From assembly GCF_946479885.1 (NCBI RefSeq), contig NZ_CAMLHM010000001.1, positions 310,001-374,000 on the forward strand: a DNA stretch of 64,000 bases, in the 5' to 3' direction. Positions 21,628 to 57,197 of this stretch are shown here, one piece after another. The translations under genes were made by a program, and so were the position numbers. The DNA comes from an uncultured Devosia sp. (lineage in GTDB: Bacteria; Pseudomonadota; Alphaproteobacteria; Rhizobiales; Devosiaceae). Every line of letters starts with the position of its first letter. Position 1 is the first letter of the stretch. Below the pieces are notes generated by a model. The model had not been told where the DNA came from. It made no database searches and saw nothing but the letters and a program-made list of their open reading frames with translations.

Positions 21628-21784
21628 GGCGGGCAATCCGAAAGAACTGATCGCCATGCAGATATCGTCCCTGATGGCCCCGCGCAAGTGTCATTTGAGG
21701 TACGTACCTCAAATTCTGGAGAGGGCTCAATCTGCGTCCGAGCTGGCTTGCAGGACGGCCTAACCGTCATCACGCATGTCGCCC

Positions 21785-45480: not shown

Positions 45481-46482
45481 CTATAGTCGCGGTGCTGACG
45501 ACTGCCGCAGGCGGACGCCGCCCGACAACAGGTCGATGCCGGTCCGCTGCCGCCAGGCCCCCCAGAGCCCATCGGGCAAGTAGAGGGCGAAGCCCACGGC
45601 GATGATGCCCAGGCCGGTGAGATACCAGACGCCGAGATCGCCGAAGATTTCCTGCAGCAGGAAGAAGATCACGGCGCCGATGATCGGGCCCTCGAAAGTC
45701 CTAAGGCCACCCACCAGCACCATGAACAGCATGAACACGGTCCATTGCACGCCGAAATTGGTGCGCGGCAGGAACGTGATGGCGCTGGCCAGCCAGATGG
45801 TGCCGGCCAGGGCACAGCCAAAGGCGGCAAGCACGAAGATGATCTGCTTGATCCGCATCACGTCGATGCCGATGGAGGCTGCCGCTTCCTCGTCGTCGCG
45901 AATGGCCTGCGCCGCCGCGCCGATGCGGCTGCGCAGCAGCCAGAAGGTCGTCGACAGGATCAGGGCAAGGCTGCCCAGGCCCAGCCAGTAGTTGAGATTG
46001 CGGCGCAGTTCGGGCTCGACAGCATTGAGCGCCAGCAACGAGGTGCCGGTTTCTCCCTGCACCAGCGGATCGAACATCACCACGATGCGAAGCACCTCTG
46101 CGATGACCCACATGGCAATGGCGAATTCGCCGCCCTTGAGACGCAGGGCAAAGGTCGAGATCGGGATGGCGACGAGGCCGGCGCCGACCGCGCCCGTGAC
46201 CAGAGCCAGGTAGGGCGGCATGCCCAGATCCACCAGGCGCAAAGCCAGGTAGCCGCCGACGCCAAAAAAGGCTTGCTGGCCGACCGAGACCAGTCCGGCA
46301 TAGCCGGCCAGCAGGTTCCACATCACGGCGAGCAGGATGTAGATGAAGAGGGTGGTCAGCTTGTCGATGACCAGCCCGCTCGCCAGCGCTGGCAACAGGG
46401 CCAGCACGACCAACGCGGTGGCGGCCGCAGCGACGGTCAGCCGGCCCGAACGGGTCCAGCGCTCAACGCCATAGGAAGTCAT
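45481..46482 (-). CDS. livM: Branched-chain amino acid-type ABC permease LivM
   Basis: This inner-membrane permease has 333 residues with about nine helices. It shows the LivM motif block AGYAGLVSVGQQAFFGVGGY (about 60-79) and the conserved SRIGAAAQAIRDDEEAAASI segment. It pairs with LivH. The ATG overlaps the LivH stop by 4 bp. Although the family transports branched amino acids, the downstream and upstream genes suggest an aromatic or phenylpropanoid substrate. Confidence 0.9.
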   Translation of the reverse strand: MTSYGVERWTRSGRLTVAAAATALVVLALLPALASGLVIDKLTTLFIYILLAVMWNLLAGYAGLVSVGQQAFFGVGGYLALRLVDLGMPPYLALVTGAVGAGLVAIPISTFALRLKGGEFAIAMWVIAEVLRIVVMFDPLVQGETGTSLLALNAVEPELRRNLNYWLGLGSLALILSTTFWLLRSRIGAAAQAIRDDEEAAASIGIDVMRIKQIIFVLAAFGCALAGTIWLASAITFLPRTNFGVQWTVFMLFMVLVGGLRTFEGPIIGAVIFFLLQEIFGDLGVWYLTGLGIIAVGFALYLPDGLWGAWRQRTGIDLLSGGVRLRQSSAPRL

Positions 46483-47420
46483 GGTTGCCCCTCGCTGGTG
46501 GCTTCGATCAATCGGGCGGTGGGCCTCGCTGGCAGGCGCAATGCGGCGCGCCAGCCTCCCAGATTGCGGCTATGGGCCAGGTAAAGGCGGGCGCCGAGGA
46601 CGCCGAGGAACACAAGATGCCCCGCCAGCTGGAAGCCCTGCGCCGAAATGGTGGCGCCAAAGCTCTGCGCCACGCCCAGCACGATGCCGCCGATCAGGGT
46701 GCCCCAGAGCGAGCCGATGCCGCCGATCACCACCGCTTCGAAGGCAAAGATCAGTTGCGTGGGGCCGGCATAGGGATTGATCAGCGCCCGCATGGCGAGG
46801 AAGGCTCCGGCGAGCCCGGCCAATGCCACCGCGATCGCCGCAGCGGCGCGGTGTACGGCGCGCGCATCGATGCCGCTCAGTTCGGCGGCCTCCGGATCGC
46901 TCGCCGTGGCACGGATGGCGCGGCCGAGCCTGGAGAAGCTGAGCACCAGTTGCAGGGAAGCCAGCACCGTCACCGCAACCACAAAGGTGATGACCGGCAG
47001 CTGGCCCACCGTGATGCCCCATGGGAGCGACCAACTGGCCCAGGACAGGTTGCCGATATGATTGCCCAGCGATTTGGTGTCGGAGCCGAAGAGGCCGAAC
47101 ATGCCGTTCTGCAGCACGGCGCCCAGCCCGAATGTGGTCAGCAGCGGCAGCAGGAAACCACCCTTGACGGTGCGGGCGAAGAGCGTCGCCTGCAGCACCC
47201 AGCCCAAGAGGGCCATGACGGGGATCACGGCGGCAACGGCGAGCCAGGGCGAGAGCCCCAGCACTTCGACTGCGAACAGCACCAGGTAGGCGCCGAAGAT
47301 GGCCAGGTCGCCATGGGCGAGGTTGATGAAGCGGACGACGCCGAACATCAGCGACAGGCCGGCGGCAAGGATGGCGTAGTAGCCGCCAAGCAGTATGCCC
47401 TGGATCAACGCGTCAAGCAT
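46479..47420 (-). CDS. livH: Branched-chain amino acid-type ABC permease LivH
   Basis: This 313-residue permease begins MLDALIQGILLGGYYAILAA and includes FGVVRFINLAHGDLAIFGAY, the LivH hallmark, and SRLGRAIRATASDPEAAELS, the ATPase-contact region. The ATG at 47420 lies within the end of livF (8 bp overlap). A longer in-frame start inside livF is rejected. Confidence 0.9.
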   Translation of the reverse strand: MLDALIQGILLGGYYAILAAGLSLMFGVVRFINLAHGDLAIFGAYLVLFAVEVLGLSPWLAVAAVIPVMALLGWVLQATLFARTVKGGFLLPLLTTFGLGAVLQNGMFGLFGSDTKSLGNHIGNLSWASWSLPWGITVGQLPVITFVVAVTVLASLQLVLSFSRLGRAIRATASDPEAAELSGIDARAVHRAAAAIAVALAGLAGAFLAMRALINPYAGPTQLIFAFEAVVIGGIGSLWGTLIGGIVLGVAQSFGATISAQGFQLAGHLVFLGVLGARLYLAHSRNLGGWRAALRLPARPTARLIEATSEGQP

Positions 47421-48138
47421 AGGCGACCTCCTGCTGCGCGAGGCCGAAATAGGCTTCGGTGATGGCTTGCTTGCCGAGCGTCTGCGGCTTGCCCTCGAGC
47501 GCGATGCGCCCCTCGAGCATGCAGATGACCCGGTCGGAAAATGCCATGGCGCGGTCGAGGTCCTGTTCGACCACAATCATCGCCGTATCGCCTCGTCCCT
47601 TCAGGCCCGCCAGTTGTTGGTATAGCCCCTCTATCGCCACAGGCGAGAGCCCCAGCGACACTTCGTCGAGCAGCAGCACCTTGGGGTTGCTCATCAGCGC
47701 CCGGCCGATGGCGACGGCCTGGCGCTGACCGCCCGAAAGGCCGCCCGTGACGACCTTGAGCAGCGGCGCCAGCACCGGCAAGGCTGCCAGTACGCTGTCC
47801 AGCGTCCAGGCGCCGGGACGACCGTTTTCGCCGGCGACCAGCAGGTTTTCCCGCACGGTCATGTCGACGAACAGCCGGCGACCCTCGGGCACCATGGCAA
47901 TGCCGCTGGCGACCCGCCGGAACGGCGCCAGCGTCGTGACGTCGGTGCCATCGAGCGCGATGGTGCCCGAACTGGCCGGATGGCCCCCCGCCAGGGTGCG
48001 AAACAGGGTCGTCTTGCCGGCACCATTGGCGCCGATGACGCCCAGAACTTCGCCTGGCTCGACACTGAAAGAGACGTTGCGCACGGCGGTCAGCAGGCCA
48101 TGGCCGGCCACGAGATTGTCGACTGTCAGCATGGTCAT
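47413..48138 (-). CDS. livF: Branched-chain amino acid-type ABC ATPase LivF
   Basis: This 241-residue ATPase shows Walker A GANGAGKTT (about 38-46), signature LSGGQRQAVAIGRAL, Walker B VLLLDEVSLGL and the H-loop region with VVEQD in place of the usual His, which is normal for LivF. Its ATG overlaps the LivG stop as ATGA. It is part of livK..livG-livF-livH-livM on one strand. Confidence 0.9.
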   Translation of the reverse strand: MTMLTVDNLVAGHGLLTAVRNVSFSVEPGEVLGVIGANGAGKTTLFRTLAGGHPASSGTIALDGTDVTTLAPFRRVASGIAMVPEGRRLFVDMTVRENLLVAGENGRPGAWTLDSVLAALPVLAPLLKVVTGGLSGGQRQAVAIGRALMSNPKVLLLDEVSLGLSPVAIEGLYQQLAGLKGRGDTAMIVVEQDLDRAMAFSDRVICMLEGRIALEGKPQTLGKQAITEAYFGLAQQEVAYA

Positions 48139-48881
48139 GCCATTTTTCCCCCCAGATAGGCGCGCCGGACTTCGGGATCAGCCATCACCGTTTCGGGTCG
48201 GCCTTGGGCGATGACGGCGCCGGCGCTCATGCAGACCAGACGGTCGATCACCTTGAGCAGCGCATGCAGGATGTGCTCGATCCAGACGATGGTGAGACCG
48301 TCGGCCTTGAGCTGGCTGATCAGGGAGATCAGCAACCCGAGTTCGGCCTCGGTCAGCCCCCCGCCGATCTCATCGAGCAGGATTACCCGTGGTCGCGTCG
48401 CCAGGGCGCGAGACAGTTCGAGCCGCTTGCGATCGAGCAGGCCCAGGGCGGCGGCTGGTCGGTTGGCGTGATGCAACAGGGCCGTGCGCTCCAGCGCCTG
48501 CGCCGCGCAATCCTCGGCGGCGGCGCCGGTGAGGCCCGCCCCGAACTGCGCCGCCGTCAGCGCGTTTTCGAAAACCGACATGCCCAGAAACGGCCGCGGC
48601 ACCTGGTGGGTGCGGGCAATGCCTGACCGGCACCGGGCTGCGGCTCCGGTGCCGGTCAGATCGGCGCCGGCAAACTGCACCGTTCCCGAGGTGGGGAGGA
48701 GGGCCCCCGCCAATACTCCGAACAGCGTGGTCTTGCCGGCACCATTGGGACCGACAATGCCCACCGCCTCGCCAGGGGCGACAGCAAAGTCGACGGCCTT
48801 GAGCACTTTGAAGGCGCCAAAGCTCTTGTCGATGCCGTAGCCCGCCAGCATCGGCTGGGCGATTGTCGGTTCACCGGTCAT
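48135..48881 (-). CDS. livG: Branched-chain amino acid-type ABC ATPase LivG
   Basis: This 248-residue ATPase has Walker A GPNGAGKTT (about 43-51) and Walker B VILLDEIGGGLTEAE, with H-loop WIEHI. The signature region is atypical: LDRKRLELSRALATRPR replaces the usual SGGxQR pattern, keeping the RxxLExARAL core of LivG. It starts 5 bp after the livK-like stop. Confidence 0.88.
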   Translation of the reverse strand: MTGEPTIAQPMLAGYGIDKSFGAFKVLKAVDFAVAPGEAVGIVGPNGAGKTTLFGVLAGALLPTSGTVQFAGADLTGTGAAARCRSGIARTHQVPRPFLGMSVFENALTAAQFGAGLTGAAAEDCAAQALERTALLHHANRPAAALGLLDRKRLELSRALATRPRVILLDEIGGGLTEAELGLLISLISQLKADGLTIVWIEHILHALLKVIDRLVCMSAGAVIAQGRPETVMADPEVRRAYLGGKMA

Positions 48882-48885
48882 GGCT

Positions 48886-50217
48886 TCAGCCCTGCACGGT
48901 GTAGGCGGTCATCGCGCCGGTGGTCGGCACGAATGGATTGTCGGCGTTGGAGACGATGGGCAGGTCGAACTCCCATGGCCCTTCGGCGGCCTTGACCCAT
49001 TGCACGCCCACGACGCCCGTCGTGGCGACGTTGGGCACCGGGCCCGCGGTGAAGTCGACCAGGCCGACGGCTGTCTCGGTCTTGAGCACCGAAAGCGCCT
49101 GGGCCACGGCCGCCTTGTCCTTGGGGTTGCCGGAGCTCGCCAGCGCGGCCACAGCGGCATCGAGCAGCGAGGCATTGGCGCCCACCTGCTGGTTCCACTG
49201 TTTGCCGACCATGGCTTCGTAGCCTTCGGCGATGACCCGGCTGCTGAGGCCGGTCGAGGGCGAACTGAAGGGGAAGTCCCTGTGCCAGTAAGCACCGGCG
49301 TGCAGGCCATAGCCGAGCGACCCCATGGCCTCGAGCTCGGCCGGGAACAGACCGGCCTTGGCGAGCTGGCATATCTTGATCTGCTGGGCCAGCCCCTTCT
49401 GCGCCGCCTGCCGCCAGAAGACCGGGAAGTCGGGCGGGAACGGGAAGGTGTTGAAGATCTCGCAGCCTTCGTCGCGGAACAGGTTGATCTGGGTCGAAAA
49501 ATCCGCCGTGCCGTTTTCGTACGGACCCGGATCGACGATGGTGAAGCCAGCTTTCTCGAGTTCGGGCAGCAGCAGGCCGCGGATGGCGCCGCCGTCGGCA
49601 TCGTTGGGCAGCAGCACGCCGACCTTCTTGTTGGTCTCCACTTTGCTCCACTGATCGGCATAGAGCCGGGCAAAATTGCCGACGCCGAAGCAGAAGTGGT
49701 AGGTCCACTTGAACGGCGATGGCTCGCCCGGCTTGGCGCCGCGACCGAAATAGAAGGCCTCCCATGGTGCGGTGGTGGTGAGGCACGGCGTGCCCGCTGC
49801 CTCGCAGGCGTCGGCCACCGGATTGACCGTTTCTGGCGTTGCCGAGGCCAGCATCAGGTCGATGGCTTCGCCATTGATCAGGTCCTTGGCCACCTGGCTG
49901 GCCCGCACCGGATCGGACTGGGTATCGGCCAGCACCAGTTCGATGCCGTAGCGCTTGTCGCCGACAAGCACGCCATCGGCCATGTTGCGGTTGAACTGCT
50001 CGATCAGGAAGGGATCGCCTTCGCCGAACACGCCGAGCGGACCGGAGCGCGGACCGATGAAGCCGACGCGAATGACATCGTCGCCCTGGGCAAAGGCGGA
50101 ACGAACACTGGCCGGCAGCGTCAATGCCGCCGCGGCGCCGCCAGCGACGGCCCCTGCCGTCTTGATGAAGTTGCGCCGGGTGACGCCGCTGCTGCTTAGG
50201 GTCTTGTAGATGCTCAT
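48886..50217 (-). CDS. LivK-like periplasmic binding protein with Tat signal
   Basis: This 443-residue binding protein (Peripla_BP_6) has a twin-arginine signal, SGVTRRNFIKTAGAVAGG at about 10-27, ending SAFAQ. The mature part reads IRVGFIGPRSGPLGVFGEGD, and includes DTQSDPVRASQVAKDLI. It is longer than LivK (about 370). Tat export suggests folding before export. GGGAGGAAACC precedes the ATG. In this cluster it is the likely receptor for an aromatic acid or alcohol ester; that substrate is inferred only from neighbours. Confidence 0.87.
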   Translation of the reverse strand: MSIYKTLSSSGVTRRNFIKTAGAVAGGAAAALTLPASVRSAFAQGDDVIRVGFIGPRSGPLGVFGEGDPFLIEQFNRNMADGVLVGDKRYGIELVLADTQSDPVRASQVAKDLINGEAIDLMLASATPETVNPVADACEAAGTPCLTTTAPWEAFYFGRGAKPGEPSPFKWTYHFCFGVGNFARLYADQWSKVETNKKVGVLLPNDADGGAIRGLLLPELEKAGFTIVDPGPYENGTADFSTQINLFRDEGCEIFNTFPFPPDFPVFWRQAAQKGLAQQIKICQLAKAGLFPAELEAMGSLGYGLHAGAYWHRDFPFSSPSTGLSSRVIAEGYEAMVGKQWNQQVGANASLLDAAVAALASSGNPKDKAAVAQALSVLKTETAVGLVDFTAGPVPNVATTGVVGVQWVKAAEGPWEFDLPIVSNADNPFVPTTGAMTAYTVQG

Positions 50218-50285
50218 GGTTTCCTCCCTGGATGTGAGCGTCTGGCGGATCGGCCTCCCAACCGGGTCCGCGTCATGCACTGCTG

Positions 50286-51173
50286 TCAGGCGGCGTGCCG
50301 CCGGACGAAGTCGCCTGCCTCCTCGATCGAGGCCATGCCTTCCTCGAGCATGGGGGCGAAGAGCTGCCAGGAGTGGCACATGCCCTCCCAGACCTTGAGT
50401 TCGGCCTTGCCACCCGCGGCATTGATGCGTGCGGCAATGCTGATGCTGTCGTCGCGCAGCAGTTCCCACGAGCCGACATGCACCAGCACGGGCGGCAGGC
50501 CCGAGACATCGCCGTAGAACGGGGTGACCTTGGGCGAGCGCAGGTCGCCGGCGCCGACATAGACCATGTTGAACAGGCCCATGAGGTCGCGATTGACCAG
50601 GGGGGCGTCGGCCATGGTGCGGTGCGACTCGCCCTCGCTCGCCAGGTCCAAAGCCGGCGACATCAGCACGAGACAGGCCGGCAGCGGCAGGCCGGCGTCG
50701 CGCGCCCGCACTGCTGCAGCCAGCGCCAGGTTGCCACCGGCCGAGTCGCCGCTCAGCACCACCGATGCTGGCGGGTAGCCGCGATCGAGCGCCCAGCGAT
50801 AAGCAGCATAGGCATCGTCATGCGCAGTCGGCGCCGGATGCTCGGGCGCTAGGCGATAGTCGACGCTGAGCACGGTGGCACCGCTGGCCTTGGCCAGGTG
50901 CGTGGCGATGGTGCGATGCGAGCGCGGCGAGCCGAAAAGGAAGCCGCCACCATGGTAGTAGATCACCAGCCGGTTCTCGTCGCCGCCCGGCAGGCGGATC
51001 AGTTCGGCCGAACAGGGGCCGACCGAGATGGTCTCGATCATGGCCCCATCGGCAATCGGGGTCTGCGCGTTGATCGCTTCGAACCACTCGCGCAGTTGCG
51101 GTGGCGTGGCATTGGCCGGTGGCGGATTTTCGGCGCTGATCTTCAGGATGAAATCGAGCTGTTCCTTGGACAT
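50286..51173 (-). CDS. Alpha/beta hydrolase of the hormone-sensitive-lipase type
   Basis: This 295-residue cytoplasmic esterase has the oxyanion motif YYHGGGF (about 72-78), nucleophile GDSAGG (about 143-148), the acid region LPPVLVHVGSWELLRDD and catalytic His in GMCHSW. It belongs to the HSL family IV. GAGGAGGACCGCC precedes ATG 51173. Lying between the binding protein and the alcohol dehydrogenase, it may release an aromatic alcohol or acid from an ester. Confidence 0.88.
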   Translation of the reverse strand: MSKEQLDFILKISAENPPPANATPPQLREWFEAINAQTPIADGAMIETISVGPCSAELIRLPGGDENRLVIYYHGGGFLFGSPRSHRTIATHLAKASGATVLSVDYRLAPEHPAPTAHDDAYAAYRWALDRGYPPASVVLSGDSAGGNLALAAAVRARDAGLPLPACLVLMSPALDLASEGESHRTMADAPLVNRDLMGLFNMVYVGAGDLRSPKVTPFYGDVSGLPPVLVHVGSWELLRDDSISIAARINAAGGKAELKVWEGMCHSWQLFAPMLEEGMASIEEAGDFVRRHAA

Positions 51174-51184
51174 GGCGGTCCTCC

Positions 51185-51952
51185 TCAGATGTAGGTGGAG
51201 GCCAGCCCGCCATCGATGGGCAGGTTGATCCCGTTGATCCAGCGGGCGGCGTCGGAGAGGAGGAAGGTGACCGGCGGAGCGATCTCGTCGCCAAAGCCGG
51301 GACGCTTCATGCGCGGCGCGTCGTTGGCGATGCGTTCCTGGCCCAGCATGGTGACGAAATCGCCCAGGATGGGGGTGAAGACCGGCCCCGGCGCCACGCA
51401 GTTCATGCGCAGGTCGAACTTGAGGAACCACTCCTGGGCGCGGGCAAAGGTCCAGACGATCAGCGCTTCCTTGAAATACTGGTAGCAGGTGTCCTGTGGC
51501 ACCGGATTGGCCGCGAGCCAGGCCTCGCCCTCGGCGAAGCCGTCGACATCAGACAGCGCCTTGTGCAGGGCCAGACGCTGTTGCCACTCGCCGCCCAGCA
51601 CCGAGGCGAAGTTGACGATTGAGGCGCCGGGCTTCAGCCGGTCGACGACACCCTCCGTCAGGTGGCGGAGGCCAAGATAGTTGACCTTCGCTACCAGCTC
51701 CTTTGGGGCGGTGCCGGGAACGCCTGCGGCATTGACCAGCCCGTCGAATTGCTCCGGCAGCGCGGCAATGGCGTCGTCGATGCTCGCGGTATCACCCAGA
51801 TCGACCTTCACGAAGCCGTCCAGCGTGAGGAGAGGGTCGTTGCGGTCGAGGCCGATAACGCGGGCGCCCGAGAAGCGGGCGAGCCGGGCGACTTCCCCGC
51901 CAATGCCCGAGGAGGCGCCGGTCACGACAATGGTTTTGCCTGAAAGGTTCAT
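51185..51952 (-). CDS. SDR closely resembling coniferyl-alcohol dehydrogenase CalA
   Basis: This 255-residue NAD(P)-dependent dehydrogenase has TGASSGIG (about 12-19) and the active-site CYQYFKEALIVW, which keeps YxxxK. The blocks CYQYFKEALIVW, MNCVAPGPVFTPIL, FVTMLGQER, KRP and the ending GLASTY are the same as I recall for CalA of Pseudomonas, which oxidises coniferyl alcohol to coniferaldehyde. Such a run of matching blocks is beyond general SDR similarity. AAAGGA precedes ATG 51952. The aldehyde dehydrogenase upstream would take the next step. Confidence 0.85.
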   Translation of the reverse strand: MNLSGKTIVVTGASSGIGGEVARLARFSGARVIGLDRNDPLLTLDGFVKVDLGDTASIDDAIAALPEQFDGLVNAAGVPGTAPKELVAKVNYLGLRHLTEGVVDRLKPGASIVNFASVLGGEWQQRLALHKALSDVDGFAEGEAWLAANPVPQDTCYQYFKEALIVWTFARAQEWFLKFDLRMNCVAPGPVFTPILGDFVTMLGQERIANDAPRMKRPGFGDEIAPPVTFLLSDAARWINGINLPIDGGLASTYI

Positions 51953-51977
51953 GGCAGCATTCCTTTGGATTGTGGGA

Positions 51978-53450
51978 TCAGAAGGGGTAGGCGGTGGCCT
52001 GGTCCTTGACCGAGATCCACATCCACTGGGTGAATTCCTCGATATCGGCCGGGCCCCCGATGCGGCTGCCATTGCCCGACTTGCCTCGGCCGCCAAAGGG
52101 GGCGAAGGGGCCGCCATTGACCGTCTGGTCGTTGATATGGAGCTGGCCGACATTGAGCTGTTCGCCCAGCGCCAGGGCGCGGCCGGTGGCCGCCGAGATC
52201 ACCCCGGCGGCGAGGCCATAGTCCGACATATTGGCGATCTCGATGGCTTCGGCATCCGAGCCGAAGCGCACGATGCAGGCGACCGGTCCGAAGATCTCCT
52301 CCTCGAAGGCACGCATGCCGGGCTTCACGCCATCGAGCACGGTGGCGGCGTAGAAGCGACCGTCATGGGTGCCGCCGGCTAGGAGTCTAGCGCCCTTGGC
52401 CACGGCGTCGTCGACGATGGCCTGGATGGACTGCACCTGGCCGTCCGAAATGATCGGGCCGAGCGCCACGCGGCCGGAGGACGGATCACCTGACGGCAGA
52501 TGGCTCGCCTTGGTCACCAGCCGTTCGGTCAGCGCGGCGGCGATCGAGTCATGGGCGAGGATCAGGCCGGTGGCCATGCAGATCTGGCCCTGATGCAGGA
52601 AGGCGCCCCAGGCGGCGTTGGAGGCCGCGATATCGAGATCCGCATCGTCGAGCACGATCAGCGCATTCTTGCCGCCCAGTTCAAGCTGCACCTTCTTGAG
52701 ATGCTTGCCGCAGAGTTCGCCGACCTTGGAGCCGCCGCGGGCCGAGCCGGTGAAGGAGACCATGGCGATATTGGGATCGGTGCACAGCGCCTCGCCGGCA
52801 TCGGCGCCGCCGGGGACGATGTGCAGCACGCCCTTGGGCAGGCCAGCTTCCTCGAAGATGCGGGCGATGATGATGCCGCCGCTGATCGGGGTGCGCGGAT
52901 CGGGCTTGTGGACGACGGCATTGCCAAGGGCGAGCGCCGCAGCGATGGCACGTACCGACAGGACCAGCGGGAAGTTGAACGGCGAGATGACGCCGACCAC
53001 GCCATGCGGCACCCGCTTGGCGTAATTGGTACGATCGTCGAAGCCGGAGAGCACGAGCCCCGTCGGCTGGGTCGCGAGATTGGCGGCGTGGCGGATGAAC
53101 AGCGCGCCATGTTCGATCTCGATGCTGGCCTTGGGCTGGATCGAGCCGCTTTCGCGCATGATCCAACCGATCAGTTCTTCGCCATTGGCGACCAAGAGGT
53201 CGGCCGCCTTGTTGAGGATGGCGGCGCGCTGGGTCGGCAAGGTCTTGGCCCAGGCCTTTTGTGCCTGACGAGCCTCGGCGGCGGCGCGGGCGATATCGGC
53301 GGGGCCGCCGAGGCCGACGCTGGCCAGCAAAACGTCGGTCGATGGGTCGCGCACCTCGACGGCGCCGGCGACGGTTGCCTGCCAGTCGCTGAACAGGGCC
53401 TTGCCGGTCCAGCGTTCAACCGCGATGAAATTGGGGCTCTGGATATTCAT
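51978..53450 (-). CDS. Aldehyde dehydrogenase, benzaldehyde/coniferaldehyde type
   Basis: This 490-residue NAD-dependent enzyme oxidises an aromatic aldehyde to the acid. It shows ISPFNFPLVLS, KPDPRTPISGG, FTGSARGG, catalytic Glu in LELGGKNALIV (about 253-263), catalytic Cys in GAFLHQGQICMAT (about 287-299), and EEEIFGPVA. The C-terminal HINDQTVNGGPFAPFGGRG and EEFTQWMW ... AYPF are typical of XylC/AreC-like benzaldehyde dehydrogenases. GGAGGACGAT precedes the ATG. It is the first gene of the catabolic operon, about 210 nt after the sigma-54 promoter. Confidence 0.9.
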   Translation of the reverse strand: MNIQSPNFIAVERWTGKALFSDWQATVAGAVEVRDPSTDVLLASVGLGGPADIARAAAEARQAQKAWAKTLPTQRAAILNKAADLLVANGEELIGWIMRESGSIQPKASIEIEHGALFIRHAANLATQPTGLVLSGFDDRTNYAKRVPHGVVGVISPFNFPLVLSVRAIAAALALGNAVVHKPDPRTPISGGIIIARIFEEAGLPKGVLHIVPGGADAGEALCTDPNIAMVSFTGSARGGSKVGELCGKHLKKVQLELGGKNALIVLDDADLDIAASNAAWGAFLHQGQICMATGLILAHDSIAAALTERLVTKASHLPSGDPSSGRVALGPIISDGQVQSIQAIVDDAVAKGARLLAGGTHDGRFYAATVLDGVKPGMRAFEEEIFGPVACIVRFGSDAEAIEIANMSDYGLAAGVISAATGRALALGEQLNVGQLHINDQTVNGGPFAPFGGRGKSGNGSRIGGPADIEEFTQWMWISVKDQATAYPF

Positions 53451-53671
53451 ATCGTCCTCCTCGCGCCGGCGATGCGGCCATTTCTCGGGCCGGCTTGTGC
53501 CGGCTTGTCGCGTCGGAAGGAGAAGGCGTGGGTGGACGAGACCTGCCACCAGGCAAGCCGGTGGCGCTTGGCGAACAGGCGGTTTCCCACCTGGCGCATT
53601 GGCCGTCCCGAAGACCAGATTGGTCGATGTCCTCCCACGCCCGCTTCCTCAAACGGGCTTGCCGACACAAT

Positions 53672-53687
53672 TGCAAAGGCCGTGCCA
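53672..53687 (-). promoter_or_regulatory. Sigma-54 (-24/-12) promoter of the aldehyde/alcohol dehydrogenase operon
   Basis: On the minus strand the sequence is TGGCACG-GCCT-TTGCA, an exact match to the sigma-54 consensus TGGCACG-N4-TTGCA, preceded by C and followed by A as preferred. Transcription would start near 53660 and run into the aldehyde dehydrogenase gene. The divergent gene encodes a sigma-54 activator, which makes a chance match unlikely. Confidence 0.88.
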
Positions 53688-53840
53688 GATGCGGGTCGGA
53701 GGGGTATGGCGCATGGGGTCGAGAGCGCGGAATCGAACAGCAGCAAAGGATTTGATCTTGCTCGGCGCCGGAACCGGCCGCGTCACAAGCGGGCGAGGTC
53801 GCGGCGACGCATTTCACGATCTCAGAAGATTCCTCTGGAA

Positions 53841-53862
53841 GAATTCATGAAATCATGAATTC
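53841..53862. promoter_or_regulatory. Perfect palindrome, candidate activator-binding site
   Basis: GAATTCATGA and TCATGAATTC form a perfect inverted repeat separated by AA. It is about 165 bp upstream of the sigma-54 promoter, a usual distance for an upstream activating site of a XylR/DmpR-type protein, and 21 bp before the activator ATG, so it could also give autorepression. Confidence 0.7.
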
Positions 53863-53883
53863 TTGACGCGAGGAGGATCGATC

Positions 53884-55632
53884 ATGAACAAGGCCGACCG
53901 GCTGATTTCACTGGCCGAGGCATCGCGGCGGGCCAGCGGCATCCTGGCGCGCGGCGCCAGCAGCGAGCTCGAGACCGGTGCCGCACCCACCTTCGAGGAC
54001 CTCACGGAAGTGCTGCACTTCGCGCTGGGCGATGGCCGCATCTGGCTCAACGACCAGCGCGTGGTGCTGATGCAATCCTCCGTGCTGGGCCGCATTCGCG
54101 AGGAGATCATCGATGCCTTCGGCACTGACACGGCACGCGCCATGTTCATGCGCATCGGCTACATGCAGGGCGTGCGCGACGCCGAGCTGATCCAGAAGCG
54201 CTGGCCGCAGGAGGACCTGACCCACGCCCTCGCCGCCGGGCCGCGCGTCCATACGCTCGAAGGGTTCGTCAAGGTCACGACCAAGCATTTCGAGTTCGAC
54301 AGCGACAAGGGCACCTATTTCGGCGAATTCCGCTGGGACGATTCCTCCGAGGCCGCCGAACATCTGGCCAGCTACGGCGTTTCCACCCAGCCCGTCTGCT
54401 GGCTGCAAACCGGCTACCCCTCGGGCTATACCAGCAAGCTCTTCGGCAAGCCGGTCTTCTTCCGCGAAACCGAATGCGCCGGCATGGGCGCCAAGCATTG
54501 CACGGTGATCGGCCAGAATGCCGAAGCCTGGGAAAAGGACGCGCCGGAGCGCGAGTATTTTGGCCTGCAGTGGAAGAACCGCCGCACCTATGCGTCGCGG
54601 GCGCCCGAGGCGAGCCCGGTGGACGACGTGCCAGCGCCCGATGCGACGGGCAGTGTGGCAGTGGGCGTTTCCGCCGCCTTCATGCGCACACGCCATTTGC
54701 TGCAAAAGGTGGCGGTGACCGATGCCACCGTGCTGTTTGTCGGCGAATCCGGCGTCGGCAAGGAGCTGTTCTCGCGGCAACTGCATGAACTGAGCCGGCG
54801 GGCCGACGGGCCATTCGTCGCCATCAACTGCGCCGCCATCCCCGACAATCTGGTGGAATCAGAACTGTTCGGCGTCGAGAAGGGCGCCTATACCGGCGCC
54901 ACCAGCTCGCGGCCCGGCTATTTCGAGCGGGCGGCAGGGGGAACGCTGTTTCTCGACGAAGTGTCCTCGCTGGCCTATTCGGCGCAGGGCAAGCTGCTGC
55001 GCGCCTTGCAGGAACGCGAGATCGAGCGCGTCGGCGGCAGCAAGACGATTCCGGTGGATGTGCGCATCGTCGCCGCATCCAATGTGGATCTCGCCACCGA
55101 AGTGACCCAAGGCCGGCTGCGGCAGGACCTCTATTTCCGCCTCTGCGTCTTCCCGGTGGCCATTCCGCCGCTGCGCGAGCGGCGCGATGACATTCCGCTG
55201 CTGATGGCGCATTTCCTGCGGCTCTATTCGACCCGCCATGGGCGCAAGATCCGCGGCTTCACCCGGCGGGCCACGGAAGCCCTGCTGAAATACGACTATC
55301 CGGGCAATATCCGCGAATTGCAGAACCTGATCGAGCGCGGCACGGTCTATGCCGACGAGGACGGCCATATCGATGTCGTGCACCTGTTCAGCGGCTCCGA
55401 GCTGCTGCCGCCCTTTTCGGTTCGATTGTCGGAAGATGGCCGGTTGGACCAGCGGCCCTTCGCCGATACGGCACCCCAGGCGGAGGGCGGCTCATTCAAG
55501 GACATGGAGCGAGCCATCTACCGCGCCGCCCTCGATCGCAACGCCGGCAACGTGTCGGCCGCCGCCCGCGACCTCAAACTCACCCGCGCCAGCCTTGACT
55601 ACCGACTAGGTAAGCTCGGCCTAACGTCGTAA
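53884..55632 (+). CDS. XylR/DmpR-type sigma-54-dependent activator
   Basis: This 582-residue activator has the XylR N-terminal sensor and V4R domain (about 25-215, with [31 protein letters not shown] and the [10 protein letters not shown] cysteine motif that binds metal). An AAA+ domain (about 265-490) follows with Walker A GESGVGKE, the sigma-54 contact loop GAYTGA at 334-339 and FLDEVSSL. A Fis-type HTH ([20 protein letters not shown]) ends the protein. Family members bind aromatic effectors directly. ATG 53884 has GAGGAGGA upstream. It is divergent from the operon it probably activates. Confidence 0.92.
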
Positions 55633-55683
55633 CGCCCGGGGCGAAGGCCTTTACAACCCTCGCTCACGGCTATAAGAATAGGA

Positions 55684-55701
55684 CTTAATTCCGAACTTAA
55701 G
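55684..55701. promoter_or_regulatory. CTTAA dyad before the S24 repressor gene
   Basis: CTTAA-N8-TTAAG forms an inverted repeat in an AT-rich stretch 29 bp upstream of the repressor ATG. It could be an autoregulatory operator. Support is position and symmetry only. Confidence 0.35.
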
Positions 55702-55729
55702 ACATCTTTCCTTCTCTGAGTATTTTGCC

Positions 55730-56371
55730 ATGCTGTCACACAGAGCTATCTGGGACGGGATTGATGCCCTCGCGCGTCGGCATGGCCATTCGGTTTCGGC
55801 CCTGGCCAAGCTGGCGGGGCTCGATGCGACGGCCTTCAACGTCTCCAAGCGCATCAGCAAGGACGGCCGCGAGCGCTGGCCCTCGACCGAGAGCATTTCC
55901 AAGATCCTCGATGCCACCGGAGAGAGCTTTGACTCCTTCCTCACGGGCACGGGCGCGTTCCTGCAAATGAATGACAACCAGCCGCACCGCACGGTTCCCC
56001 TGCTTGGCCTGGCGCAGGCGGGCACCGGTGGCTTCTTCGACAGCGCCGGCTTTCCAGCCGGCCAGGGCTGGGACGAGATCGCCCTGCCCTCGCCCGGCGA
56101 AGGCGGCATTTACGCGCTCGAAGTCCAGGGCGACTCGATGGAGCCGCTCTATCGCGAGGGCGACCGCATCGTGGTCTCGCCCACCGAGCAGGTCAGGCGC
56201 GGCGACCGAGTGGTGGTCAAGACGCGTGATGGCGAGGTGATGGCCAAGATACTCGCCCGGCAGACCGGTCGGCAGATCGAACTGCATTCGCTTAACCAGG
56301 CCTATGAGCCGCGCATCTTTGACCTGGCCGAGGTGGAGTGGATCGCGCGGATCATCTGGGCCAGCCAGTGA
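55730..56371 (+). CDS. S24-family (LexA/CI-like) transcriptional repressor
   Basis: This 213-residue protein has an N-terminal helix-turn-helix (SVSALAKLAGLDATAFNVSK, about 22-41) and a C-terminal LexA/UmuD-like self-cleaving domain. The cleavage site is AQAG in LLGLAQAGTGGFF, nucleophile Ser136 in VQGDSMEPLYREGD and general base Lys173 in EVMAKIL. It could respond to RecA or another signal by autoproteolysis. No prophage genes are near. Its stop overlaps the GTG start of the acetyltransferase gene (GTGA). Confidence 0.88.
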   Translation: MLSHRAIWDGIDALARRHGHSVSALAKLAGLDATAFNVSKRISKDGRERWPSTESISKILDATGESFDSFLTGTGAFLQMNDNQPHRTVPLLGLAQAGTGGFFDSAGFPAGQGWDEIALPSPGEGGIYALEVQGDSMEPLYREGDRIVVSPTEQVRRGDRVVVKTRDGEVMAKILARQTGRQIELHSLNQAYEPRIFDLAEVEWIARIIWASQ

Positions 56372-56820
56372 CGCGTGTCGCGCCTATGGCAGCGGCGGAC
56401 GCTGCGGCCTGGGTGGCGATGCGGCAGGCCCTGTGGCCGAACGGCGGCGACCGGGGCACGCATGCAGAGGATGTGGCGCTGCTATTGGCCGACCCGGGTG
56501 ACACCGTGAACCTGATGGCCCGTGACGCGGGCGGAGACGCTGTCGGCTTTGCCGAAGCCAGCCTGCGACACGACTATGTCAACGGCTGCGACACCTCGCC
56601 GGTGGCGTTCCTCGAGGGCATCTATGTAGCGCCCGGGGCCCGCAGACAGGGTGTCGCCCGGGCGTTGGTGGCGGCGGTGCAGGCATGGGCGCTGGCGCAA
56701 GGCTGCAGCGAATTGGCGTCGGATGCGGCCCTGGACAATCTGGGCAGCCACAAAATGCACGACGCGCTCGGCTTCGTGGAAACCCAGCGCGTCGTTTACT
56801 TCCGCAAGGTGCTGGACTAG
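56368..56820 (+). CDS. GNAT acetyltransferase, aminoglycoside 6'-N-acetyltransferase-like
   Basis: This 150-residue acetyl-CoA transferase aligns with the AAC(6')-I type: WVAMRQALWPNGGDRGTHAE (about 14-33), VGFAEASLRHDYVNGCDTSP, FLEGIYVAPGARRQGVARAL (acetyl-CoA site) and SDAALDNLGSHKMHDALGF. The start is GTG 56368, which overlaps the repressor stop. Whether it modifies aminoglycosides or a native amine cannot be told from sequence. Its end overlaps the convergent gene by 4 bp. Confidence 0.85.
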   Translation: MTRVAPMAAADAAAWVAMRQALWPNGGDRGTHAEDVALLLADPGDTVNLMARDAGGDAVGFAEASLRHDYVNGCDTSPVAFLEGIYVAPGARRQGVARALVAAVQAWALAQGCSELASDAALDNLGSHKMHDALGFVETQRVVYFRKVLD

Positions 56821-57197
56821 CGGCAGCCGGCCCGGCTGAACATGTCGGCGATGATGATCGGCGTGGCGGCGGTCTCAGGCCATTTCGACTGGTCCGGCGC
56901 CGCAGCCGACAGTGCCGCCACCGCGACATTCTCATCGAGATTGAACGCATTGGTGCAGTGGACCGAGTCGGCGCCTCGCCGCTGCGCCTCCGCCATCATC
57001 AGTCCGGTCGCTTCACCGACGCCGGCCAGATAGGCGATGACCGTGGTGCGCGCGGCAGGATCGGACTTGGCCAAGGTGACCATTTCGAGCACCTGGGCGA
57101 CCGAGACCTGCCCATTGCTGGTGCTCGGTGCGGCTTGGGCAGTCCCCGATATGGCAAGCATGGCCATGGCGGCAAAGGCGGGAAAGAGGAGACGCAT
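56817..57197 (-). CDS. Small exported protein, Rap1a/Tai-like (tentative)
   Basis: The 126-residue product has a signal peptide (MRLLFPAFAAMAMLAISG, ending AQAA) and a mature helical domain with two cysteines, near residue 82 (HCTNA) and near the end (AGCR). The pattern recalls Rap1a/Tai immunity-like periplasmic proteins, but no effector gene is near and the match is weak. It is a single gene. Confidence 0.6.
   Translation of the reverse strand: MRLLFPAFAAMAMLAISGTAQAAPSTSNGQVSVAQVLEMVTLAKSDPAARTTVIAYLAGVGEATGLMMAEAQRRGADSVHCTNAFNLDENVAVAALSAAAPDQSKWPETAATPIIIADMFSRAGCR

Follow-up and report, generated by a model that had tools for sequence, protein, structure and literature searches.

The 64,000 nucleotides analyzed here (the window), from an uncultured Devosia sp., include a 433-bp gap from which two genes diverge, one for an aldehyde dehydrogenase (minus strand, start codon at 53450) and one for a putative activator of sigma-54 polymerase (plus strand, ATG at 53884). 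The gap contains one exact sigma-54 element and one dyad with 12-bp arms, and the question it raises is how the genes beside it are controlled. We consider it highly probable (roughly 0.88) that an areCBA-like operon with an added uptake ABC transporter is controlled here by a sigma-54 switch that responds to an effector. It would be a conserved alphaproteobacterial switch of this type, whose promoter and operator share a single intergenic gap. The switch is ordinary in kind and offers two testable extras.

Genes on either side of the gap

The genes of the putative operon and the divergent activator gene are the following.

51978..53450, minus strand: aldehyde dehydrogenase, benzaldehyde dehydrogenase in the annotation of relatives (domain search, annotation)
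51185..51952, minus strand: short-chain alcohol dehydrogenase (SDR), coniferyl-alcohol dehydrogenase subfamily (NF009092, 359 bits against a cut-off of 242)
50286..51173, minus strand: alpha/beta hydrolase, hormone-sensitive-lipase-type esterase (PF07859)
48886..50217, minus strand: ABC transporter substrate-binding protein (PF13458)
48135..48881, minus strand: ABC transporter ATPase, LivG-like (domain/family match)
47413..48138, minus strand: ABC transporter ATPase, LivF-like (domain/family match)
46479..47420, minus strand: ABC transporter permease (PF02653)
45481..46482, minus strand: ABC transporter permease (PF02653)
53884..55632, plus strand: XylR/DmpR-type sigma-54 activator, 582 aa (Pfam XylR_N, V4R, Sigma54_activat, HTH_8)

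The five ABC transporter genes are of the branched-chain type and follow the promoter on the minus strand. We infer that they form one transcript with the dehydrogenase and esterase genes, whose products would take up aromatic compounds, hydrolyze esters, and oxidize alcohol to aldehyde to acid. The areCBA operon of Acinetobacter ADP1 and its regulator AreR, reportedly described by Jones and Williams in 2001, presumably encodes an aldehyde dehydrogenase, an alcohol dehydrogenase, and an esterase. The accessible part of PMC4213383 gives the order areCBA under the sigma-54 regulator AreR, and the window has a matching gene order under a sigma-54 regulator. The window differs in having an SDR as its alcohol dehydrogenase and in the added ABC transporter.

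Related loci vary in gene content. Rhizobium sp. TH2 has genes for a benzaldehyde dehydrogenase, an NAD(P)-dependent alcohol dehydrogenase, a hydrolase, and the ABC transporter in the same order, with the same type of regulator adjacent; the NAD(P)-dependent enzyme (L117, 3003-4103) takes the place of the SDR. Neorhizobium galegae has only the aldehyde dehydrogenase and the coniferyl-alcohol dehydrogenase, as do 17 Pseudomonas divergons, where the ABC operon is missing from this position.

All four activator domains (XylR_N, V4R, sigma-54 activator, and HTH_8) exceed their Pfam cut-offs, and GAYTGA lies at residues 334-339, where relatives have GAFTGA or GAYTGA; the activator with GAYTGA and a V4R sensor that the original prediction described is confirmed by these findings. 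The V4R region aligns with the PoxR, CapR/DmpR, and MopR structure chains, and H123, W151, C172, E195, C198, and C206 align with the MopR chain; we take the first two to be the pocket histidine and tryptophan and the C/E/C/C residues to be the zinc set. The effector that this domain would sense is aromatic, probably an alcohol, aldehyde, or ester of the benzyl or cinnamyl type. Homologues named as Devosia are 87% identical to the activator (among at least 120 homologues listed), the nearest relative compared is 92% identical, and rpoN is present in 7/7 genomes of close relatives. Directly downstream of the activator gene is a gene for an S24-peptidase (LexA/CI-type) protein (55730-56371). Elsewhere, adjacent XylR/DmpR-type regulator genes occur as pairs in opposite directions (L019, 8001-11383; L159, 2462-5961).

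Promoter and candidate operator in the divergent gap

We compared 41 divergent gaps in which both genes are close together: that of the window, those of 23 Rhizobiales-group relatives (genomes sampled from the order and families around a Rhizobiales contig), and those of 17 Pseudomonas loci. Among the 80 initial loci, L027-L080 (54) were left out. Also left out were L018-L021, L023, and L025, which had no aldehyde dehydrogenase match, L001, which has a 3-kb gap, and L081, a duplicate of L022. The promoter element is as follows.

53673..53687, minus strand: sigma-54 -24/-12 element TGGCACGGCCTTTGC (exact, 11/11; conserved in 24/24 Rhizobiales-group gaps)

Measured against the consensus TGGCACG-N4-TTGCA, the predicted element is indeed exact: the minus strand reads TGGCACG-GCCT-TTGC at 53687-53673 (11/11). 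Across the 24 Rhizobiales-group gaps (window included), the promoter scores 11/11 in 17 and 10/11 in 7, always on the strand facing the aldehyde dehydrogenase gene, while 0.06% of shuffles score 11/11 and 1.1% score 10/11. In the 17 Pseudomonas loci, the same strand has a site of the CGGCAC/T type. The best promoter match there is just 9/11 in 16/17, a point against the sigma-54 switch, and because 13% of shuffles get there, this site has weight only through its repetition.

Loose matches to the promoter are common, with 25 in the window at up to two mismatches (34.7 expected, so the count is below expectation), and they would suit a reading in which the operon depends on a sigma-70 promoter and the -24/-12 match arose by chance. 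However, TGGCACGN4TTGCA has its sole exact match in the window at this place, with 0.01 expected per window from shuffles; the element is conserved in all 24 gaps; and a scan of 53400-53950 found no sigma-70-like site. We regard a chance match as scarcely credible. The scan also found no sigma-70-like promoter for the activator gene, which counts against the effector-controlled sigma-54 switch. In that preferred reading, the activator would remodel sigma-54 polymerase at the conserved element by ATP-driven contact via its GAYTGA loop, and transcription would start near 53661.

On the activator side of the gap are the candidate operator sequences (no strand).

53839..53864: dyad AAGAATTCATGA-AA-TCATGAATTCTT, candidate UAS, the main site at which the activator would bind (sequence; core conservation)
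53844-53859: 16-bp core TTCATGAAATCATGAA of the dyad (12-16 of 16 in 23/23 relatives)
53813..53828: second operator copy TTCACGATCTCAGAAG, weak and doubtful (shuffle p 0.127; 31 bp closer to the promoter)

A dyad had been predicted about 165 bp upstream of the promoter and just before the activator ATG. Both positions hold, with 166 bp between the core center and the GG of the -24 element and 20 bp between the end of the dyad and the ATG; the extent is slightly larger than was noted, with 12-bp arms around a 2-bp spacer. Taken alone, the dyad is only modestly unusual: the window has 3 places with perfect arms of at least 12 around a spacer no longer than 6, and 1/20 whole-window shuffles reach 12. 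Conservation is the real evidence. The same palindrome had been proposed for a search before orthologous clusters, and there the core matches at 12-16 of 16 positions in every relative (shuffle mean, 9.8); Pseudomonas loci match the window 16-mer at 10-11 of 16 at most, close to their shuffle mean of 9.6. In the 24 gaps, the main site precedes the predicted activator start by 14-47 bp, and its distance to the -24 GG is 100-176 bp. The prediction was to fall if neither element was conserved in orthologous clusters; promoter and dyad are both kept, in the same places. The profile of the 24 operators is TTCATSAWWTSATGAA, which leans on the window since sites were initially chosen with a window-based pattern; each locus was omitted when it was scored. 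Near-exact matches to the operator pattern (up to one mismatch) number 5 in 7 close genomes, 4 of them at this locus, which favors the sigma-54 switch; 3/7 genomes have no operator within one mismatch, which counts against it.

The next-best operator copy is 29-31 bp off in 16/24 gaps, versus 1.75% in shuffled-flank controls. The window has one strong site, and its second copy is weak. The accessible text of PMC6449761 describes XylR/DmpR sites as paired palindromes of 16-20 bp with centers 29-42 bp apart, 100-200 bp upstream, and reports three-turn spacing for XylR and DmpR. As a candidate operator, the dyad is of XylR/DmpR-site length and distance and, in 16/24 gaps, has the tandem spacing, but its letters are not classic. 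The dyad might instead serve a different regulator, one acting on the activator gene only, with the sigma-54 promoter real and the activator acting elsewhere. Its place next to the activator start and the weak second copy would agree with this, but its length, its distance, and the spacing seen in the group resemble those of XylR/DmpR sites, and the outer base varies with the recognition helix of the activator itself, also in MobR (see below); we think such an arrangement highly unlikely. In the sigma-54 switch that we favor, the activator would bind the dyad, perhaps aided by the weak site. Because the dyad ends 20 bp before its start codon, the activator may also limit its own expression in the manner of XylR; negative autoregulation of XylR is reported in the accessible part of PMC3469447.

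The three elements that the original prediction named for effector-dependent sigma-54 control are present, namely, a conserved promoter, a conserved dyad, and an activator with the expected domains, all read directly from the DNA; the control itself is predicted. Other perfect dyads in the window are ATTTGAGGTACGTACCTCAAAT, CAAATCGCTCCACTGGAGCGATTTG, and a hairpin with 14-bp arms, at 21693, 37466, and 32656.

Outer operator base and recognition helix

The outer operator base is C in the window group versus G in the classic TTGATCA type, and it tracks D/E versus A in the recognition helix; in the window activator the residue is D572. The claim that the palindrome is not the classic XylR/DmpR site is sustained by this base, which the window shares with MobR; a classic site is common among such regulators but not obligatory. 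The suggestion that it may be new needs qualifying, as Acinetobacter mobR has the same operator class and the geometry resembles that of XylR/DmpR. The operator is of a TTCATGA class common to Acinetobacter MobR, so that the locus represents a known kind of switch with a variant operator class. In its accessible part, PMC6449761 gives the AphR motif GCTTGATCATTTGATCATGC, a TTGATCA-type site. Regulators with such sites have the same domain set as the window group, and in both the palindromes tend to come in pairs, spaced by about three turns and located 100-200 bp upstream of a -12/-24 promoter; the window group differs by its outer C, its D/E helix, and a conserved leader hairpin.

The Rhizobiales group has the helix ..LDYRL, ..LEYRL, or ..FEYRL with TTC/GAA sites. 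Pseudomonas orthologues have ..QFAYRL and XylR/DmpR types mostly ..LAYRL or ..MAYRL; the sites of both have TTG on at least one side, the other side in Pseudomonas being mostly AAA or AAG. The comparison covered 57 loci, with L017 and L023 (partial regulators) and L081 omitted. Among loci with a usable site, half-sites of the acidic-helix type were C in 49, G in 2, and other in 3 of 54, and those of the Ala-helix type were G in 26, C in 3, and other in 19 of 48, counts that are inflated by the relatedness of the loci. The weak-site loci L001, L019, L021, L121, and L122 are absent from these counts, and L123 was counted as "other" since the helix pattern missed it, although it has D with C-type sites.

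Acinetobacter MobR shares with the window group the acidic helix (ISRAKLDYRL) and the TTCATGATTTGATGAA operator class, with two such sites upstream of mobR. It differs in that its gene lies beside phenol hydroxylase genes, in being only ~40% identical to the window activator, and in grouping with Ala-type XylR/DmpR regulators. In the tree, MobR (D) clusters with two Ala regulators, XylR and a DmpR-like one (100/99), and the acidic residue requires at least 3 changes; the MobR branch is long, which makes its placement less sure. Because MobR shows the same helix/operator pairing on a separate branch, the operator class extends beyond this locus, and that branch, with its D and C-type sites, is a stronger point for the pairing than the half-site counts.

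Exceptions to the pairing occur. Mixed operators with one C half and one G half, a point against it, are found at L083 and L091 (acidic helix) and at L125 and L160 (Ala). The site preceding pWW0 xylR belongs to neither class, and ten further plasmid regulators yielded one usable site, which is mixed. For TbmR, whose acidic helix predicts an outer C, there is an exact sigma-54 site at L129:8331 and an upstream palindrome with another core ~300 bp away (distance by eye). This exact site stands before a phenol hydroxylase operon whose TbmR-type regulator is the one with the acidic helix (L129, 7719-8399). MphR shifts mphR-mphK intergenic DNA containing its putative UAS, according to the accessible part of PMC3063778, and the corresponding part of PMC4630880 gives no operator. 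A text search with four 16-mers of the operator class, its scope leaving out most subscription papers, found no paper; the class may be published.

If the pairing is true, one acidic residue in a Fis-type recognition helix would re-set the outer base pair of the operator, giving XylR/DmpR regulators a simple code for specificity. The pairing is directly testable and could help to assign targets to uncharacterized regulators of this family and to biosensor parts derived from them.

A hairpin in the predicted operon leader

Between the candidate start site and the aldehyde dehydrogenase gene lie three further features.

53451..53661, minus strand: putative 5' leader of the operon mRNA (start placed near 53661 on the basis of the -12 element; fold z -2.9 and -2.6)
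53639..53658, minus strand: 5' leader hairpin GCCCGTTTGAGGAAGCGGGC with loop GAGGA (covariation; model match 53627-53660, a training sequence)
53630..53635, minus strand: conserved GGAGGA 3' of the hairpin (leader alignment)

The leader goes beyond what the XylR/DmpR model predicts. Its hairpin spans 20 nt almost at the predicted transcript start, is followed by GGAGGA, and varies little in its distance from the promoter. Across 19 distinct sequences, pairing holds in 85% of stem cells versus 73% when shuffled, and 14 cells are changed on both sides versus 4.8 in shuffles, with 0/500 shuffles as high. Stem partners that were slid scored far lower than the true pairing. The number of pairs with a double-sided change, 4/6, is not unusual (90/500 shuffles). 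The 24 leaders are more stably folded than their shuffles (mean z, -2.55; 17/24 below -2), compared with a mean z of -0.98 for the upstream half of the same gaps and 0.02 for Pseudomonas leaders. Beyond the hairpin, neither the 9- nor the 23-leader consensus gave covariation support for structure; long-range helices that were tempting by eye were rejected, as the 9-leader covariation term is unfavorable (+1.02) and the 23-leader consensus keeps little outside the hairpin.

A hairpin model matched 23/24 leaders, mostly its own training set, and missed L094. The untrained Rhizobium TH2 leader scored 32.1 bits and that of Neorhizobium weakly, at 14.3 bits; there was no match in 6 Pseudomonas loci or at the Azospirillum promoter. 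Searches of 136 and 247 genomes found this leader 7 and 10 times, with the regulator present in 8 and 13, and other places 2 and 11 times, which we considered chance. A wide-ranging RNA family was rejected, the 13 further genome matches having no sigma-54 site of at least 10/11 nearby. Chance matches aside, the covarying hairpin is apparently specific to this operon.

Several known forms of leader control were considered and set aside. CsrA/RsmA control was rejected because CsrA is found in 0/22 relatives' genomes. For a known riboswitch, no Rfam leader match exceeded the gathering score (window 50000-57000; 14 loci), with weak matches below it. A small leader open reading frame was discounted, no consistent start codon following GGAGGA by eye. 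Shine-Dalgarno sequestration was marginal: the longest complement is 7.5 versus 6.7 in shuffles, a six-pyrimidine run is present in 21/24 leaders versus 70% of shuffles, and masking of the ribosome site by the leader is barely above chance.

With transcription as proposed above, the hairpin and GGAGGA may be a DNA-level or plain mRNA-stability feature that regulates nothing, an interpretation we hold to be slightly better than even. It agrees with the nearly fixed promoter distance, with the lack of covariation support outside the hairpin, and with Shine-Dalgarno pairing barely above chance; against it, the covarying stem and the better folding point to RNA, though not to regulation. If the hairpin were an RNA switch, it would present a Shine-Dalgarno-like GAGGA loop close to the promoter and hint at an extra control layer on a sigma-54 catabolic operon. 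That such a second, RNA-level switch (GAGGA-loop hairpin plus GGAGGA, in this Rhizobiales group and this operon only, with a non-CsrA partner) and the acidic-residue operator code both hold is a doubtful combination, which we put forward tentatively. The leaders of L092-L094, L026, and L087 deviate in one of the two motifs.
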